Part shown: positions 37,687-45,259 of the stretch, piece by piece
How positions within the stretch are numbered: position 1 is the stretch's first letter
Layout: the number at the start of each line of letters is the position of its first letter
Assembly (NCBI RefSeq): GCF_015679185.1
Contig: NZ_CP064939.1
Location: 1,426,001 to 1,490,000 of the forward strand
From: Pedobacter endophyticus
Lineage (GTDB): Bacteria; Bacteroidota; Bacteroidia; Sphingobacteriales; Sphingobacteriaceae
Direction of reading: 5' to 3'
DNA: 64,000 nt
The notes under the pieces: model-generated
What the model saw: only the letters and a program-made list of their open reading frames with translations
Database searches by the model: none
What the model was told of the DNA's origin: nothing
Position numbers and translations under genes: made by a program

Positions 37687-38147
37687 AGTTGGTTAACAGT
37701 CAAAATGCCTTTAAGTTTGTGGTAATCGCAAGTTAGGCTATCGGGACGATCTATTGAATACTGATTGTTGACGATGTTATCGTATCATTGCCGTACTTGT
37801 AACCTAGTGTTTATAAGCTTTTGCTTGAAACCGTCGGCATGCTGGGTTTTAATAGTTGCATAAAAATCAACATAAAGGAACGTTTGGAATTTATTCGTTC
37901 GCTATCTGCGCCATGCGTCCCCCTTTGAAGGGGCCAGGGGGATGATTTCCAAAAAGTCCTCTCCCAGCAATGGTATTGCTATTTTCTCGTTACTGCAACC
38001 CTCTCCAAAGAGGGACAACAAAACAGTGCGTTAAACCCTGAGTAACAAAACGTCAATGGCAATTCATTTCAGCTTGTCGCCCTAAAGGGCCTGAAATAAA
38101 TCCATGGTTATTTGTGCAGTTCCTGCGCAATTATTTTAATTTTGAAC
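37687..38147. other. Intergenic region (461 bp)
   Basis: 37918-38025 has inverted GC-rich words (CCCCCTTTGAAGGGG, GTCCTCTCC and CCTCTCCAAAGAGGGAC) typical of dispersed repeats. The class V aminotransferase promoter lies at its right end. Nothing else identified. Confidence 0.5.
38111..38144 (+). promoter_or_regulatory. Promoter giving a leaderless class V aminotransferase mRNA
   Basis: TTTG at 38111-38114 and TAATTTTG (TAnnTTTG) at 38137-38144 with a 22-base spacer. The ATG at 38148 begins four bases after the -7 element, so transcription should start about on the start codon. Confidence 0.55.
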
Positions 38148-39221
38148 ATGAACTTCCGCGACCAGTTTCCCATTCTTAACGATTGTGTTTATTTAAATAC
38201 GGCTTACTCTGGCCTGCTTGCCACCGATTTTGCGACATGGCGGCGAGTGCACGATGAAAACTTTGTTGCATTGGGCAGCGCTTTCAGGGTGGCAAACGAT
38301 TCGATTCTTAAGGAAACCAAAACCCGGCTGGCGGGCATTTTTGGGGCATATATTGGCAATTGCTATCTTGTTCAGAACTTTTCAGTGGGCTTTAATACGC
38401 TGATTAACGGACTGGATAGAAGCCACCGTTTTTTGATCTTGAAAGAGGATTATCCGTCGGTAAACTACCCGATTAAAACGAGCGGGTTCAACTTTATGGA
38501 AGTTTCTATTGATGCTAATCTGGAAAATAATATCTTACAACAGGTTGAAGAATTTAAGCCTACGGTGCTTGCCTTTAGCATCGTTCAGTACATTAGCGGG
38601 ATCAGAATTGACCCGGCATTTATCAGGAAACTTAAAGCTACCTATCCGGATTTGTTGATTATCGGCGACGCCACTCAGTTTATGGGCACCTGTGTTTTCG
38701 ATTTTAACAGTTCGGGCTTTGATGCGGTACTTGGCAGCGGTTATAAATGGCTTTTGGGCGGATTTGGAAATGGATATGTATTTTTGTCTGATCAGCTGAA
38801 AGATGAGGTTTATAGCTGGAAAAAAGACCTCGATTTGCCTTCTTCGCCATTCCTGGAGGGGAGAGACTATCTTTCGCTTACGTTTGAACTTGGCCATTTA
38901 GACACTTTAAATTTTGGAACGCTGAACGAAGGCCTCAAATTGATTGAGAAAATTGGCATGGCGAACATCGAAACCGCAGCGCAGTCGATCAGCGATAAGG
39001 CCCGCAAAGCGTTTTACGCTAAGGGGTTACTTAACGACGAGGAAATGAACCGCCCGGTGCACTCAACCATTATGAGCTTGCCGCTGGGTGAGCACAAAGT
39101 TGCGCAGCTAAACGAGGCCAAGGTAATATTTGCTGCCAGAGGCGCTGGAACGAGGTTTTCGTTTCATTTTTACAATAACGAAAACGACTTGGACAAAGTG
39201 CTTGAGGTGCTTTCTAAGTAA
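38148..39221 (+). CDS. Class V aminotransferase-fold PLP enzyme (possible EgtE-like lyase)
   Basis: A 357-residue enzyme of the NifS/IscS-like fold. LNTAYSGLLATDF at the N-terminus, the cofactor Asp in IIGDATQFMGT and the Schiff-base lysine in GSGYKWLLGG. There is no Cys loop of a cysteine desulfurase. ATG at 38148 is chosen over an upstream TTG because it fits the promoter and the family start. The stop lies three bases from the end of the convergent egtD gene. EgtE, the hercynylcysteine sulfoxide lyase, belongs to this fold, so it is a candidate for that step; this is inference from context. Confidence 0.83.
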   Translation: MNFRDQFPILNDCVYLNTAYSGLLATDFATWRRVHDENFVALGSAFRVANDSILKETKTRLAGIFGAYIGNCYLVQNFSVGFNTLINGLDRSHRFLILKEDYPSVNYPIKTSGFNFMEVSIDANLENNILQQVEEFKPTVLAFSIVQYISGIRIDPAFIRKLKATYPDLLIIGDATQFMGTCVFDFNSSGFDAVLGSGYKWLLGGFGNGYVFLSDQLKDEVYSWKKDLDLPSSPFLEGRDYLSLTFELGHLDTLNFGTLNEGLKLIEKIGMANIETAAQSISDKARKAFYAKGLLNDEEMNRPVHSTIMSLPLGEHKVAQLNEAKVIFAARGAGTRFSFHFYNNENDLDKVLEVLSK

Positions 39222-39224
39222 AGA

Positions 39225-40208
39225 TTAACCAGTGTGGCTTTGGCATTTCCAGACTGAATCGACAAAGTATTTATTTTTATCGTAAAAGTTATGAACGGGC
39301 TCGAATCCGGTTGTTCGGGCCAGATTCTCGATATCCGTCAATGCGTATTTCTGCGAAATTTCCATAAAAATATACTCGTTTTCTTCAAACCGGATCTGCT
39401 CATTCCCTATTTTAACAGTTTGATTGGTTAAACTGATCAAATAGCTTTTACAGGCACCTGTTTCGGGATCGTAAGTGGCGTAATGCTCAAAGTTTTGCAC
39501 ATCAAAATTACCTTCCAACTCTCTGTTTATCCTCGATAAGAGATTCAAATTAAACGAACGCGTAATCCCTCCCCCATCGCTATAAGCGGAAAGGATTTGC
39601 TGTGGATTTTTCTTGAGGTCGAAACCAACAATCAGCAGGTCATCTTTTGACAATTGATCTCTCAATTGCGCACAAAAACCACGGGCTTCGGCAGGGTTCA
39701 TATTGCCAATATTTGCGCCCATAAACAAGACTACTTTACGGCGACTGGAAATTTCGGATGCGGTTTGCAACATTTCAAAATAATCGCCATTTAAGCCCTG
39801 CATAGTCAAGCCCGGCAGCTGAGCGGGTAAACTTTGCTCTAAGGAAGAAATCACATGCTCAGAAATATCGATCGGAAAGTATTTAAAATCAAATTGCTGA
39901 TTGATAAGCGCCCTAAGCAAATGAATGGATTTTGTTGCATCGCCTGCTCCGAGCTCAATCAGATCGAAAGCGGTACCTGCGGCCGAAACGACTTCAACAA
40001 GCGCCGAAGTTTGGTTGGCCAGAATATCCATTTCAGCATCTGTGAGGTAATACTCTTCCATGTTCATAATCTGCTGAAAGATGTAATCGCCCGCTTCATC
40101 GTAAAAATATTTGGAGTGCATGTGCTTTGGCTCGGCTTTTAAGCCCGCAATGGTTTCTTCCAAAAATAACTTATTTGTTGTTGCTGCCGCTGTTGTAACT
40201 GTGCTCAT
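39225..40208 (-). CDS. egtD: L-histidine N-alpha-methyltransferase
   Basis: A 327-residue DUF2260-type methyltransferase that turns histidine into hercynine, the first step of ergothioneine synthesis. SAM-binding signature FDLIELGAGDATKSIHLL, then FPIDISEHVISSL, and the conserved FMGANIGNMNPAEARGF. The N-terminal LKAEPKHMHSKYFYDEAGDY is the usual family opening with the Tyr near the substrate. Last gene of a five-gene operon; its start is four bases after the egtB stop. Length and motifs are fully consistent. Confidence 0.94.
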   Translation of the reverse strand: MSTVTTAAATTNKLFLEETIAGLKAEPKHMHSKYFYDEAGDYIFQQIMNMEEYYLTDAEMDILANQTSALVEVVSAAGTAFDLIELGAGDATKSIHLLRALINQQFDFKYFPIDISEHVISSLEQSLPAQLPGLTMQGLNGDYFEMLQTASEISSRRKVVLFMGANIGNMNPAEARGFCAQLRDQLSKDDLLIVGFDLKKNPQQILSAYSDGGGITRSFNLNLLSRINRELEGNFDVQNFEHYATYDPETGACKSYLISLTNQTVKIGNEQIRFEENEYIFMEISQKYALTDIENLARTTGFEPVHNFYDKNKYFVDSVWKCQSHTG

Positions 40209-40212
40209 AAAA

Positions 40213-41361
40213 TTATTTAGCTAAACGGATGCCCGTAAACTGCCATCGTAGATGGGGATGAAAAAAATTTCGGTAGGTTATTCTGCTGTGATTTTGAGGT
40301 GTGGCAACCGATGCCCCGCGAAGGACTTTCTGATTGACCATAAACTTTCCATTGTACTCGCCTATTGCGCCGGGTGCCTTGCTAAAGCCGGGATAGGGCA
40401 AATAAGCGCTCTCCGTCCACTCCCACCTTTGGCCCCAATTGAAGCTTTTGGCGGCAATTTCCCACTCAAATTCGGTAGGCAACCGCATGCCTTTCCAACT
40501 GGCAAAGGCATAAGCCTCGTAATAGCTGATGTGCGTTAGCGTATCGTTTGGTTTTAAGGTTTGTAACCCGTTAAGGGTGTAGCAAAACCATTGGCCATCG
40601 ATAAAATGCCAGTACATCGGAGAATTTATTTTGTTGGTTTGCACCCAATCCCAGCCTTCGGCATGCCAATAATTGAAGTTTTGATAGCCGCCATCGTTTA
40701 TAAAATCGAGATATTCGTTATTGGTAACCAGTTGAGACGAAATGGAAAAGGGTTGCAGGTAAACCTGGTGTTGGCCAAGCTCATTATCAAAGCAAAAATC
40801 GCTGCCATTAAAACCGATTTCATGAATGCCTCCGGAGAAATCGATGAAAGTTGGTGCCGCTGTATCTTGTTCAATATCTTTCCATTCGGCAGAATAGGTC
40901 GGAAATAAAGGATTGTTACCTAAAATATATTTGATATCGCTCAGTAAAAGTTCTTGATGTTGTTGTTCGTGGTTAAAGCCTAAAACCACCAGTTCGGTTA
41001 GTTCGGGCGGAACTTCGGCAGAAAGGAAACCAATCATCGCCTCATCTACATAGGCCCTGTATTTATACACATCGTTTACACTTGGCCTGCTCAGGTTGCC
41101 CCGATCGGTTCGGATAACCCTGTTGCCAATGGTTTCATAATAGCTATTAAAAACGTAGTTGTAATTAACATCAAATTCTTTGTAGTTAAACACATTGGGC
41201 TTTAAAATAAATGTTTCGAAAAACCATGTAGTATGCCCTAAATGCCATTTCGGTGGGCTAACATCAACAACGGGCTGCACTACATAGTCTTCAGTTTCTA
41301 AAGGCTCACAGATTTGTTCGGAGTACTTCCTAATCTGCTTGTATTTTTCTGCGAGGTTCAT
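40213..41361 (-). CDS. egtB: Hercynine oxygenase/sulfoxide synthase
   Basis: A 382-residue nonhaem iron enzyme that couples hercynine to a thiol (Cys or gamma-Glu-Cys). The DinB-like N-terminal domain has iron ligands His43 in HLGHTTWFFE and His131/His135 in GFNHEQQHQELL. The C-terminal FGE-sulfatase domain includes MRLPTEFEWEIAAKS and VLRGASVATPQNHSRITYRN. EgtA and EgtC genes are not adjacent; an EgtB that uses free Cys would not need them. Its start codon overlaps the permease stop by one base (TAATG). Confidence 0.94.
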   Translation of the reverse strand: MNLAEKYKQIRKYSEQICEPLETEDYVVQPVVDVSPPKWHLGHTTWFFETFILKPNVFNYKEFDVNYNYVFNSYYETIGNRVIRTDRGNLSRPSVNDVYKYRAYVDEAMIGFLSAEVPPELTELVVLGFNHEQQHQELLLSDIKYILGNNPLFPTYSAEWKDIEQDTAAPTFIDFSGGIHEIGFNGSDFCFDNELGQHQVYLQPFSISSQLVTNNEYLDFINDGGYQNFNYWHAEGWDWVQTNKINSPMYWHFIDGQWFCYTLNGLQTLKPNDTLTHISYYEAYAFASWKGMRLPTEFEWEIAAKSFNWGQRWEWTESAYLPYPGFSKAPGAIGEYNGKFMVNQKVLRGASVATPQNHSRITYRNFFHPHLRWQFTGIRLAK

Positions 41362-42932
41362 TAATTTTTATCTAAATAGTTTTTGAGGTCTGTAATACTA
41401 GTAACGTTTAGCGCTTTTGATTGTTTTTGCCGCATCATTAAAGCATAAGAATTATTAAAACCAATTGGTTTTAACCACTTGATTTCGAATTTTTTATCGA
41501 ACTGCTCGGCAACGTAATCATAAGTTTTATTTTTATCGTGGGCAATCTGCCGGGCCAGTTTCGGGTCGGGCTGAAGCAATACCAACAAGCCTGTTCCGGT
41601 GTATTCGGGGTAAAGATCGATCTGGTCGTTAACCAGTGCATCAAAGCAGATTTTTGTTCCTCCAAGGCCGGTTTTGGTTGAAACATTGTAATCAGTGTTG
41701 CCTTTTATCAGCATGCTGTACATCTCGGCGAGGATATATTGTTCGCCGAAAATTTTCGATCCGATGCGCACTACGCCTGCATTACCGTTTCGCGGCGTTT
41801 TGTACAAACCAACGCTGCTCAGAAAATCTTTCGCCACCTTTTCGGGCGTTTGATGCAGATAATCGGTTTTATAATTAAGTTCGGTCATGACCGAATCTGA
41901 AATTCTATTCGAAAGCAGGTTTAAAACATTTTCGAGTTCAGGGAATTTTTGAAGCGCAGATTTTCGTACAATAGGTGCGGCGTAGTATGGCGGAAAGATC
42001 GATTTATCGTCTTTCAGAATTTTCAAATCGAAAGCCTTTAGGCGGCCATCGGTCGAGTAACCACTAATTACGTCGAGTTCTTTAGCATAGGCTGCTTTAT
42101 ACATCACTGCATCGCTAATTACTATGGTATGAATTTTCAATCCGTACACAGATCTTAAACCTAAATCTCCATCCTGGCGACCCATAAATTCGGGTGTAAA
42201 GCCTGCGGTAAGCGAAGAGCCGTAAGCGGATGGCAGGAGGTAAAAGCTACTTAACAATACGAGCATAAAGGGAAAAACGAGGGTTATTTTCCGCAGCTTT
42301 GCAAAGTTGAGATGTTGAATGAGCGACAGTAAGAAATCTAAAAGGATGGCGAGCAGTGCGGCGGGAATTGCGCCTGCGAGGATCATATTTGTATTATTTA
42401 GCGAAATGCCGCCGAAAATAAACTCACCGAGGCCACCAGCGGCAATGTAAGAGGCAAGTGTGGCCACGCCAACATTGATTACGGTGGCTGTTCTGATCCC
42501 TGCGAGGATAACGGGCATGGCCAAAGGAAGCTCTACCTTAAACAAAATTTGCCAACTGCCCATGCCCAATGCTTTGGCGGCTTCGATTACGTGCTTGTCG
42601 ATACCAATAATTCCGGTATAAGTATTTCTGATAATGGGCAATAGGGCATAAATGAGCAACGCAACAATTGCCGGTTTTGCACCGATACCGAGTAATGGAA
42701 TCATAAAACCCAGCAATGCAATGCTGGGAATGGTTTGCAGCACGCCCGCGAGGCCTAAAACGCTTCCCGATAACTGGCGCTTTCTGGCGATGATGATGCC
42801 CAGCGGTAGGCCAATGGCAACGGCAAAAAACAACGAAATGAAGGTTAAACCGATGTGTTGTAAGGTTTGGTTCAGCAATTTATCTGATTCGGCTGCCATA
42901 AACTGCCACAGCGTTTGTTGTTGCTCGTTCAT
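41361..42932 (-). CDS. ABC permease fused to a circularly permuted substrate-binding domain (EgtU/OpuB-like)
   Basis: A 523-residue fusion. Residues 1-210 are an OpuB/ProW-type permease with the coupling motif EAAKALGMGSWQILFKVELP. A helix at 216-235 leads out to the substrate-binding part. This reads in swapped order: residues 241-376 (AGFTPEFMGRQDGDLGLRSV to DFLSSVGLYK) match the C-terminal half of OpuBC/EgtUC domains, and residues 388-523 (VRIGSKIFGEQYILAEMYS to SITDLKNYLDKN) match the N-terminal half, joined by a linker of about 11 residues. All motifs seem intact, so it should fold as a periplasmic binding domain. Neighbours point to ergothioneine as ligand; betaine or choline remain possible. 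Confidence 0.9.
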   Translation of the reverse strand: MNEQQQTLWQFMAAESDKLLNQTLQHIGLTFISLFFAVAIGLPLGIIIARKRQLSGSVLGLAGVLQTIPSIALLGFMIPLLGIGAKPAIVALLIYALLPIIRNTYTGIIGIDKHVIEAAKALGMGSWQILFKVELPLAMPVILAGIRTATVINVGVATLASYIAAGGLGEFIFGGISLNNTNMILAGAIPAALLAILLDFLLSLIQHLNFAKLRKITLVFPFMLVLLSSFYLLPSAYGSSLTAGFTPEFMGRQDGDLGLRSVYGLKIHTIVISDAVMYKAAYAKELDVISGYSTDGRLKAFDLKILKDDKSIFPPYYAAPIVRKSALQKFPELENVLNLLSNRISDSVMTELNYKTDYLHQTPEKVAKDFLSSVGLYKTPRNGNAGVVRIGSKIFGEQYILAEMYSMLIKGNTDYNVSTKTGLGGTKICFDALVNDQIDLYPEYTGTGLLVLLQPDPKLARQIAHDKNKTYDYVAEQFDKKFEIKWLKPIGFNNSYALMMRQKQSKALNVTSITDLKNYLDKN

Positions 42933-43876
42933 GGTTTTTGATATTTGTTAAAAGCCTCGGTAACTGAACCGAAATCGATTTCTTTTACGGAATCGCCATT
43001 TTTGACCGCTAATTGCTGTGGGCCGATTAATCGGAGCCGCTCCAAGGTATCCCAAATATTGGTGTTAATGTCGATTTCTTCGAGGTTGGGATTGTGAGCC
43101 GGTGTTTTTAGCTGGTGCCAGATATCGTGCAGCTTAACAACCATCAGTTCTAAAGTTAAACGTTGGCCATCAAAAAACTGCCTTGCAAAAGCATTAACAG
43201 GATTGTACAATAAATCTTTTGGAGTGCCTGTTTGAACGATTTCGCCTTTATCCATTAAGCAAATGCGATGGGCAAGCTCGAAAGCCTCCTGTACATCGTG
43301 TGTCACCATCAAAATTGTTTTTCTTTGGAGTTCTTCGAGCGCCTTAAACTCTTTTTGAATGCTTGAGCGGGTAACATTGTCTAAGGCGCCGAAAGGTTCA
43401 TCCATAAGCAATATCGGCGGATCAGCTACCAGTGCACGGGCCAAACCCACGCGTTGTTGCTGCCCGCCGCTCAGCTCGTGCGGAAACATGCTGAGGCTGC
43501 TTTCAGAAAGGTGGAGCTTGGCAACAAGTTCGCGGGTTCTTTCCGCGGTTCGTTGCTTATCCCATTTGAGTAGTTTAGGAACAACGGCGATATTTTCTTC
43601 GACGGTATAATGTGGAAACAAGCCAATACTTTGCATAACATAACCGATGCCTCTGCGCAACTCTTCGGGGTTTTGTTGGCTGGTCTTTTTACCATCAACG
43701 AAAATCTCGCCGGTGTATTTATCAATCAGCCGGTTAATCATTTTTAATGTGGTGGTTTTACCGCAGCCACTGGTGCCCAACAAAACCATGTTTTCTTTTT
43801 CTGCTACGTTGAGGGAGATATTTTTTACCGCCGCAGTTTCGCCAAAATACTTGCTGACTTTTTCAAGCTTGATCAT
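42929..43876 (-). CDS. ABC transporter ATPase, OpuBA/ProV/EgtV-like
   Basis: A 315-residue ATPase of the quaternary-amine importer family. Walker A GTSGCGKTTTLKMINRL, Q-loop in GIGYVMQSIGLFPHYTV, signature LSGGQQQRVGLARAL, Walker B PILLMDEPFGALD and H-loop MVTHD. The C-terminal 75 residues do not look like the paired CBS domains of ProV/OpuAA, as is also true of some OpuB/EgtV ATPases. It overlaps the fused permease by four bases and is preceded by the flavin reductase gene after three bases. It powers uptake through the fused permease. Confidence 0.92.
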   Translation of the reverse strand: MIKLEKVSKYFGETAAVKNISLNVAEKENMVLLGTSGCGKTTTLKMINRLIDKYTGEIFVDGKKTSQQNPEELRRGIGYVMQSIGLFPHYTVEENIAVVPKLLKWDKQRTAERTRELVAKLHLSESSLSMFPHELSGGQQQRVGLARALVADPPILLMDEPFGALDNVTRSSIQKEFKALEELQRKTILMVTHDVQEAFELAHRICLMDKGEIVQTGTPKDLLYNPVNAFARQFFDGQRLTLELMVVKLHDIWHQLKTPAHNPNLEEIDINTNIWDTLERLRLIGPQQLAVKNGDSVKEIDFGSVTEAFNKYQKP

Positions 43877-43879
43877 GTA

Positions 43880-45259
43880 TTAATCTTCGATTTTCATGAA
43901 CAGATTATTCAATGATTCTGAATAGGTTGGATGGGCAAAAACGCAATATCGAATGCGGTCGTACGTAATCCCGCCTTCCATGGCCATTTCTAACACCGAC
44001 ATAATTTCGCCACCTTGAGCGGCCAGGATCGATGCACCCAAAATTTGCTTGGTGTCTGTATCTACAATGGCCTTCATAAAACCTAAAGTTTCGTTGGTTT
44101 CAATGCCCCTGGCCACTTCTGACATTGGGATTTTAGCGACCTTGATGTTTAGGTTTTTCTCTTTTGCCTCCGATTCAGAAATGCCTATCCTGCCCAACTG
44201 CGGATCGGTAAACATGCAATAGGGCATCGGTCGATCTTCGGTAGTGTAATTGGTTTTTTCGAACAGGTTGCGGTAAACGATGGTGTAATCGTTGTAAGAA
44301 ATATGCGTAAATGCGGGACCTCCCTTTACATCGCCCAATGCAAAAATGCCTTCAACGTTGGTGCGGAGTTTTTCATCGACGGTGACATACCCACGATCGT
44401 TCACCGCTACGCCGCAGTTTTGAAGCTGCAGGGCCTTGGTTTGAGGCGTTCGTCCGGTGGCAACCAAAACGTGCGAGCATTTCAGGGTACGTTTTTCATT
44501 TCCTTGTGTAATTTGAATGGTAATTTGATCGCTTTTCTCAATTTTATTGATTTTCATATCTGTTACGATCTCAATTCCTTCGTCTTCGAAAATTTTGGTC
44601 ATCGCCTCCGAAACATCTTCATCTTCGCGGCTCATAATTCTCTCCGATCTCTCCAAAATAGTCACCTGGCTACCGAAGCGACTGAACATTTGGCCAAATT
44701 CCAGGCCGATGTAATTTCCGCCTATTACAACAAGGTGTTGTGGTATTTCCTCTAAATCTAATATGGATGATGAGGTTAGGTATTCGATTTCGTTTGATCC
44801 GTCGATAGCTGGAATGGTTGGTGTTGCTCCAACATTTATGAAAATCAAATCGGCAGTCATTTTTTCTTGCGTGCCATCATTTAGCTTAACCAGCAACTCT
44901 TTTTCGCCTGTAAAACTAGCTTCTCCATGTAACAGGGTTAGACCTTCGGTGCTTTCCAATCCTTTTTCTGATGAGCCCCTGAACGATGATACAATATGGT
45001 CTTTTCTTTCTTTTATCTTTTTGAGGTTCACTTTTACCTCGCCAATTTCGATGCCCAGCGCTCCGGCTTTTCTTGCCGCATGCGCCGCCCCGGCCGAAGC
45101 TATCATTGCCTTGGTAGGCGTACAACCCACATTGATGCAGGTGCCACCAACTACGTTTTTCTCAATAATGGCTGTATTTTTTCCCGCAAGGGCGAGCTTT
45201 TTTGCAAGGGGCGTGCCGGCTTGTCCAGAACCTATTACTATCGCATCAAAATGTTTCAT
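43880..45259 (-). CDS. FAD-dependent pyridine nucleotide-disulfide oxidoreductase
   Basis: A 459-residue class I flavin disulfide reductase. FAD site IGSGQAGTPLAKKLA, redox-active Cys41/Cys46 in GGTCINVGCTPTK, NAD(P) site VVIGGNYIGLEFGQMF, second FAD motif GIFALGDVKGGPAFT and the catalytic FAHPTYSE His near the C-terminus. It resembles mercuric-reductase-like and Lpd-like proteins but lacks the extra metal-binding Cys tail of MerA. First gene of the egt operon, so a low-molecular-weight disulfide such as oxidised ergothioneine is a plausible substrate; this is inference. Confidence 0.9.
   Translation of the reverse strand: MKHFDAIVIGSGQAGTPLAKKLALAGKNTAIIEKNVVGGTCINVGCTPTKAMIASAGAAHAARKAGALGIEIGEVKVNLKKIKERKDHIVSSFRGSSEKGLESTEGLTLLHGEASFTGEKELLVKLNDGTQEKMTADLIFINVGATPTIPAIDGSNEIEYLTSSSILDLEEIPQHLVVIGGNYIGLEFGQMFSRFGSQVTILERSERIMSREDEDVSEAMTKIFEDEGIEIVTDMKINKIEKSDQITIQITQGNEKRTLKCSHVLVATGRTPQTKALQLQNCGVAVNDRGYVTVDEKLRTNVEGIFALGDVKGGPAFTHISYNDYTIVYRNLFEKTNYTTEDRPMPYCMFTDPQLGRIGISESEAKEKNLNIKVAKIPMSEVARGIETNETLGFMKAIVDTDTKQILGASILAAQGGEIMSVLEMAMEGGITYDRIRYCVFAHPTYSESLNNLFMKIED

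Follow-up and report, generated by a model that had tools for sequence, protein, structure and literature searches.

The ATP-binding cassette (ABC) transporter EgtU of Streptococcus pneumoniae (EgtUBC plus EgtUA) carries on its permease a fused binding domain of cluster F-III, EgtUC (structures 7TXL and 9EGI), and was described as the importer of an ergothioneine-taking bacterium (PMC9732360). A 64,000-nucleotide stretch of the Pedobacter endophyticus genome (contig NZ_CP064939.1, positions 1,426,001 to 1,490,000; hereafter the window, in whose coordinates all features are given) encodes, within a cluster for ergothioneine synthesis, another permease-binding-domain fusion that also has a separate ABC ATPase and most ligand residues in common with EgtU. 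However, the EgtU binding domain has the canonical order, in which an N-terminal half (A) precedes a C-terminal half (B), whereas in the window protein the permease (P) is followed by B and then by A, so a binding domain of the EgtUC/OpuBC type is circularly permuted. This fusion is probably the permease of an ABC importer that takes up ergothioneine and whose permuted domain likely keeps the normal two-lobed fold.

Bacillus subtilis OpuAC is a separate binding protein without a permease fusion. A permutation with the same ends has already been published for OpuAC (2B4L, 2B4M), which also has the order B-A, and positions 3 to 282 of the 287 in the window domain model fit residues 12 to 272 of its chain. 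Nevertheless, OpuAC is only 17-18% identical to the window domain, compared with 43% for EgtUC on the aligned half, and it binds the cation by tryptophan (PMC9732360) where the window has tyrosine. OpuA of Lactococcus lactis (7AHC-7AHH) resembles the window protein in carrying permease and binding domain on one chain, and its permease part aligns at 80.6 bits, but a weak profile match (3l6g, 152-246 of 256, E 0.00078) puts the B half at the C-terminus of the chain, so its order is probably normal. OpuA entries were absent among the 50 matches listed for the domain model, an absence that carries no weight alone, and Foldseek alignments of the full-length model to OpuA (495-512 columns, TM 0.49-0.51) are too loose for reading domain order.

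The fusion gene (41361..42932, minus strand, like all parts of it given below) is a single intact open reading frame of 523 codons for amino acids. Its product matches the Pfam family OpuAC (PF04069) in two stretches, with 191.6 bits against a cut-off of 21.2; the best stretch aligns residues 237-372 with profile positions 111-256, and a search of the organism's own genome shows profile positions 3-113 after it, so the second half of the profile precedes the first. When the Protein Data Bank was searched with phmmer, residues 240-378 aligned with positions 138-276 of the 277-residue EgtUC chain 9egi_A (123.7 bits) and residues 390-518 with positions 10-134 (74.3 bits), two pieces in swapped order. 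The permease core (42285..42896) has a BPD_transp_1 match at residues 41-214 and is taken as residues 13-216. The last hydrophobic helix (42240..42305; residues 210-231 in the model, with a hydropathy peak at 216-234) is the predicted tether into the B half (41799..42215; residues 240-378), which corresponds to EgtUC 367-505 and includes most of lobe D2, the second hinge strand and the C-terminal part of lobe D1. An 11-residue linker (41766..41798; residues 379-389) joins the ancestral C- and N-termini, and the A half (41370..41765; residues 390-521, matched through 518 to EgtUC 239-363) supplies the N-terminal part of D1, the first hinge strand and the start of D2. A preliminary description, which had read conserved motifs of an OpuBC/EgtUC-type domain as standing in reverse order across a join of about 11 residues, is borne out by these matches, and the frame check did not restore the normal order.

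The same description had placed the cut in the hinge between the lobes, and on this point it does not hold. In EgtUC, lobe D2 comprises residues 341-432, and the hinge lies between 331 and 341 and between 432 and 445 (PMC9732360). Mapping to EgtUC numbering sets the new ends at 363/367, both inside D2, which rules out a hinge cut; in the predicted model the chain runs through the hinge strand and then two helices before it ends. Its other structural proposals, a retained fold and a tether on the other lobe, agree with a model that predicts one domain and with a chain that enters D2 instead of D1, so the earlier reading stands except for the hinge. The ancestral ends both lie in D1 and are now connected by the linker. 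D1 is made of A residues 390-486 and B residues 318-378, and D2 of A residues 496-518 and B residues 240-305; because each lobe draws on both halves, these must fold together and are not expected to form separate domains. Modeling predicts the usual two-lobed fold for the permuted domain, and its membrane-proximal new end would continue the last transmembrane helix, so that the domain would hang by D2 rather than D1.

Type I importers have two permease subunits and two ATPases, and their binding domain docks after ligand closes its lobes. A homodimeric importer of this type would be assembled from two copies each of the fusion protein and the ATPase; in it, ligand would close the lobes, the domain would dock and ATP would power uptake. 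Since the tether now enters D2, the lobes may be set in another register against the two identical permease subunits.

A survey of domain order, read with custom hidden Markov models (HMMs), found P-B-A in 104 rows that represent 99 distinct proteins (five genes appear twice); B and A are separated by 12-18 residues, most often by 12 (58 of the 104 rows). A genome scan was seeded with P-B-A proteins and the best 80 of 569 relatives were kept; the order was P-B-A in all 80 loci, which is therefore a measure of conservation and not of frequency, but which excludes chance as the cause of the swapped order. By their labels, these loci come from 71 Bacteroidota, 4 Balneolota, 2 Candidatus Melainabacteria, 1 Cyanobacteriota (a Calothrix metagenome-assembled genome, or MAG) and 2 unplaced genomes (one labelled Aminicenantes), although the non-Bacteroidota labels include MAGs, in which contamination is possible. 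By order they divide into 24 Chitinophagales, 19 Cytophagales, 17 Sphingobacteriales, 6 Flavobacteriales, 5 other Bacteroidota and 4 Balneolales, so the arrangement is conserved over several bacterial orders. In one genome (G080, locus L004) the fusion gene has an in-frame TAA within the match and its longest open part starts later, so this is possibly a broken copy or a gene with a later start.

Among 395 genomes sampled from the Bacteroidota, 22 (the P. endophyticus genome included) match the fusion over nearly its whole length and on that ground are read as P-B-A, order having been checked in loci. In a further 31, a related permease (E 2e-62 to 3e-41) occurs in frames 484-601 residues long, with no overlap between the two sets, and the 16 of these that were read by HMM have the order A-B-P. 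In these Bacteroidota fusions (L025-L032 and L146-L155) the permease is related to that of the window (46-55%) and the pocket is of the same type, but the binding domain is N-terminal and in normal order. A phylum sample around a Melainabacteria MAG gave a full-length match in 2 of 244 genomes, the centre included; other loci read from it were P-A-B, unfused or, once, A-B-P (L118). The P-A-B fusions, which include L113 of Levilactobacillus brevis and L135-L145 of the Melainabacteria-centred sample, have the permease first like the window protein, but their binding domain is canonical. In a phylum sample around the L041 genome the only match among 198 was the centre itself, and a protein of member G669 is labelled Acidobacteriota. 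The first protein search listed 120 proteins, of which 117 were P-B-A and three were B-A alone (entries of 301-307 residues). The named nearest homologues of the window protein are mostly from Pedobacter, and its own genome (5.43 Mb, one contig) has no other OpuAC domain match. In the open-licence literature, no paper was found whose title or abstract start describes the P-B-A order.

Phylogenetic trees, unrooted and built from 79 rows thinned by hand (39 of the 104 P-B-A rows were used), place P-B-A on one side of a branch both for the permease (support 98/94) and, more weakly, for the binding domain (75/90); when the long row L115 was left out and eight rows were added, the support of the P-B-A branch was 100/98. 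We infer that the permutation arose in one event in a permease-A-B ancestor, which would have passed through a tandem A-B-A-B stage from which loss of the first A and the last B would leave B-A. An 839-residue protein (P0124, on a 25-kb contig) consists of a permease and two tandem canonical domains (P-A-B-A-B), whose repeats are identical at 186 of 266 positions (70%), and so has the topology expected of an intermediate in permutation by duplication. Since P0124 does not branch as the sister of the P-B-A clade, it demonstrates that an intermediate of this kind is possible but is no evidence of ancestry, and it was rejected as the ancestral intermediate itself. Direct descent from A-B-P fusions was also rejected, since most P-A-B and unfused systems are closer to P-B-A in the permease tree, albeit with weak support (85/44), as was descent from L. 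lactis OpuA, given where the weak profile match places its B half.

The fusion gene lies in a minus-strand cluster in which gaps of 3, -4, -1 and 4 bases separate oxidoreductase, ATPase, fusion, EgtB and EgtD, so translation is likely coupled across it. At its head, 3 bases before the ATPase gene, a pyridine-nucleotide-disulphide oxidoreductase of the flavin adenine dinucleotide (FAD) type (43880..45259) is encoded, which is related to RclA, MerA and mycothione reductase, reached no NCBIfam cut-off among 25 models listed, and has a relative in 40 of the 80 scan loci; it is a candidate reducer of oxidised ergothioneine. The proV-like ATPase gene (42929..43876; 299.9 bits against a cut-off of 326.6) shares 4 bases with the fusion gene. 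The start codon of egtB (40213..41361) overlaps the fusion stop by 1 base, and its product passes the cut-off of TIGR03440 (547.3 bits against 360) but does not reach that of the SenA model (354.6 against 420). Four bases past it, the EgtD-type histidine methyltransferase gene (39225..40208) matches the histidine-specific methyltransferase family PF10017 at 324.6 bits (cut-off 23). On the plus strand, facing egtD, is a gene for a class V pyridoxal phosphate enzyme (38112..39221), relatives of which are also near the cluster in L087 and L094, and which is a candidate for an EgtE-type C-S lyase step.

A link to ergothioneine synthesis recurs in other genomes. Of the 22 P-B-A genomes in the sample, 12 encode EgtB within 1.5 kb of the fusion, and in the scan loci (flank up to 6 kb, less at contig ends) EgtB and EgtD are each present in 57 of 80. 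The most common gene order in these loci is ATPase-fusion-EgtB-EgtD, but EgtD-EgtB-ATPase-fusion occurs in five Chryseobacterium and Epilithonimonas loci and EgtB-EgtD-ATPase-fusion in L047 and L066. In the 395-genome sample, EgtB is over the cut-off in 20 of 22 P-B-A genomes versus 93 of 373 others (Fisher 5e-10, kinship ignored), and in 25 of the 31 A-B-P candidate genomes (kinship again ignored), so ergothioneine synthesis accompanies both fused forms; EgtB and EgtD are present together in six of ten A-B-P regions fetched, six of the ten having been chosen because EgtB was near. Two further loci (L046:11-1275 and L062:3242-4711, plus strand) have an EgtD relative and then a small gene beside the ATPase and P-B-A genes, the small gene of L046 belonging to the DUF427 family by Pfam and that of L062 looking similar; no EgtB over the cut-off was found in either genome. 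From the gene neighbourhood and this co-occurrence it is predicted that the fusion likely binds and imports ergothioneine. Encoded beside EgtB and EgtD, such an importer would serve to take back ergothioneine lost by leakage from the producing cell, or to capture that of neighbours.

To compare ligand pockets, 15 positions were read in EgtUC numbering. The window is identical to EgtUC at K242, I243, T275, T296, N339, Y341, E375, R379, D381, Y419 and Y443, a set that includes eight residues around the ligand in EgtU (K242, E375, R379, T275, N339, Y341, Y419 and Y443). I243 touches the thione sulphur in EgtUC. After removal of duplicates, the locus includes EgtB in 68 P-B-A rows, and in 31 it was not seen in the flank covered (1.5 kb for ten of them); the I243 position is I, V, L or M in all 68 of the former, while among the latter it is I, V or L in 12 and N in 14. 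A simple rule based on I243 is nevertheless spoken against by the EgtB-linked A-B-P rows, which have K or H there in six of six. The glycine at window residue 425 is no evidence, because 9egi_A has glycine at 274 as a T274G mutant, according to its Protein Data Bank title. As a check on the mapping, the L. brevis plasmid protein L113 (P-A-B) has the EgtU pattern of G, F and Y at the three positions considered next, although it lacks E375 and R379.

Several observations weigh against ergothioneine as the substrate, and are best considered with the possibility that the permuted domain is real but takes up glycine betaine, choline or another osmoprotectant, with EgtB and EgtD adjacent through shared stress regulation. 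EgtU and glycine-betaine binders are told apart by G244, F293 and Y337, and a G244F change in SpEgtUC lowered ergothioneine affinity about 100-fold (PMC9732360). The window has F395, Y444 and F492 for these residues, as in the glycine-betaine binder AfProX, and this pattern, which predominates in P-B-A and A-B-P rows alike, is also that of the EgtB-linked P-B-A rows (F at 395 in 66 of 68, Y444 and F492 in all 68), 13 of which in addition have S at the Y419 position. EgtB is absent from 23 of the 80 scan loci, and although a genome-wide check of 22 of these found it over the cut-off in 17, the other five genomes have no match over it. It is also common where P-B-A is not found, in the 93 of 373 genomes already noted, of which 25 are A-B-P candidates, and the EgtD of the window scores 288.4 bits with TIGR03438, a near miss at 2.5 below the cut-off of 290.9. 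Because of the F-Y-F pattern, either ergothioneine is bound by a second type of pocket or the substrate is another betaine. Recurrence of the EgtB/EgtD linkage in several gene orders and in both fused architectures argues against an osmoprotectant, as does, more weakly because the groups are related by descent and because of the short flanks and the A-B-P residues noted above, the contrast at the I243 position, and this explanation is considered unlikely. Import of the intermediate hercynine (histidine betaine) to feed EgtB would suit L046 and L062, where an EgtD relative lies by the transporter in genomes with no EgtB over the cut-off, but the window cluster holds EgtB as well as EgtD, and such a role for the fusion is very doubtful.

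As for the permutation itself, nothing except the unusual order favours a frame error, an assembly rearrangement or a pair of unrelated partial domains; the intact reading frame, the survey, with P-B-A in all 80 scan contigs, and the one-domain model rule out frame error and split domains, and the probability of an artefact of this sort is negligible. Another explanation is that the swapped order was inherited from the permutation behind B. subtilis OpuAC and so is not a second event. The chain order is the same and the ends are nearly the same along the whole chain, but the identities given above are far lower to OpuAC than to EgtUC, and a profile built from 61 permuted domains retrieves EgtUC and AfProX with E values of 4e-69 or lower while 2b4l and 2b4m are not listed with E up to 10, which makes common inheritance with OpuAC improbable.

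The B-A module is also found in another setting. In a MAG labelled Acidobacteriota, a protein of about 1,000 residues (P0121; L168:2570-5719, plus strand) carries the module on an MscS-like mechanosensitive channel, in a layout of one hydrophobic stretch, the B-A module, a long middle part and the MscS beta and C-terminal domains. Of the 18 P0121 relatives listed, three (P0121 itself, P0122 and P0125) have MscS and OpuAC together, and no MscS was found for P0123. The order is B-A in P0121 and P0122; P0125 reads A(80-130)-B-A(1-69) and seems, from its sequence, to have yet another permutation point. P0121-P0123 group together (100/100) outside P-B-A, their exact place being unsettled.

The chances appear about even that one old permutation, with ends as in the distant OpuAC, re-hung a whole lineage of ergothioneine importers by the other lobe, that ergothioneine-making Bacteroidota use either P-B-A or A-B-P fusions, and that the module also serves as an outer domain of MscS-like proteins. 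If this is true, evolution in this family would be free to change both the order of the lobes and the tether, and recognition of ergothioneine would not everywhere follow the glycine/phenylalanine rule. The window protein also puts in doubt how general the pocket positions for calling EgtU are. The window protein offers a natural, conserved circular permutation within a membrane-tethered receptor domain, and because unpermuted relatives exist in the same phylum, natural pairs can be used to test how docking and transport depend on lobe order and tether. The P-B-A fusions also point to ergothioneine producers as likely carriers of a dedicated importer, and to a transporter group that extends beyond the Firmicutes-centred description of EgtU.
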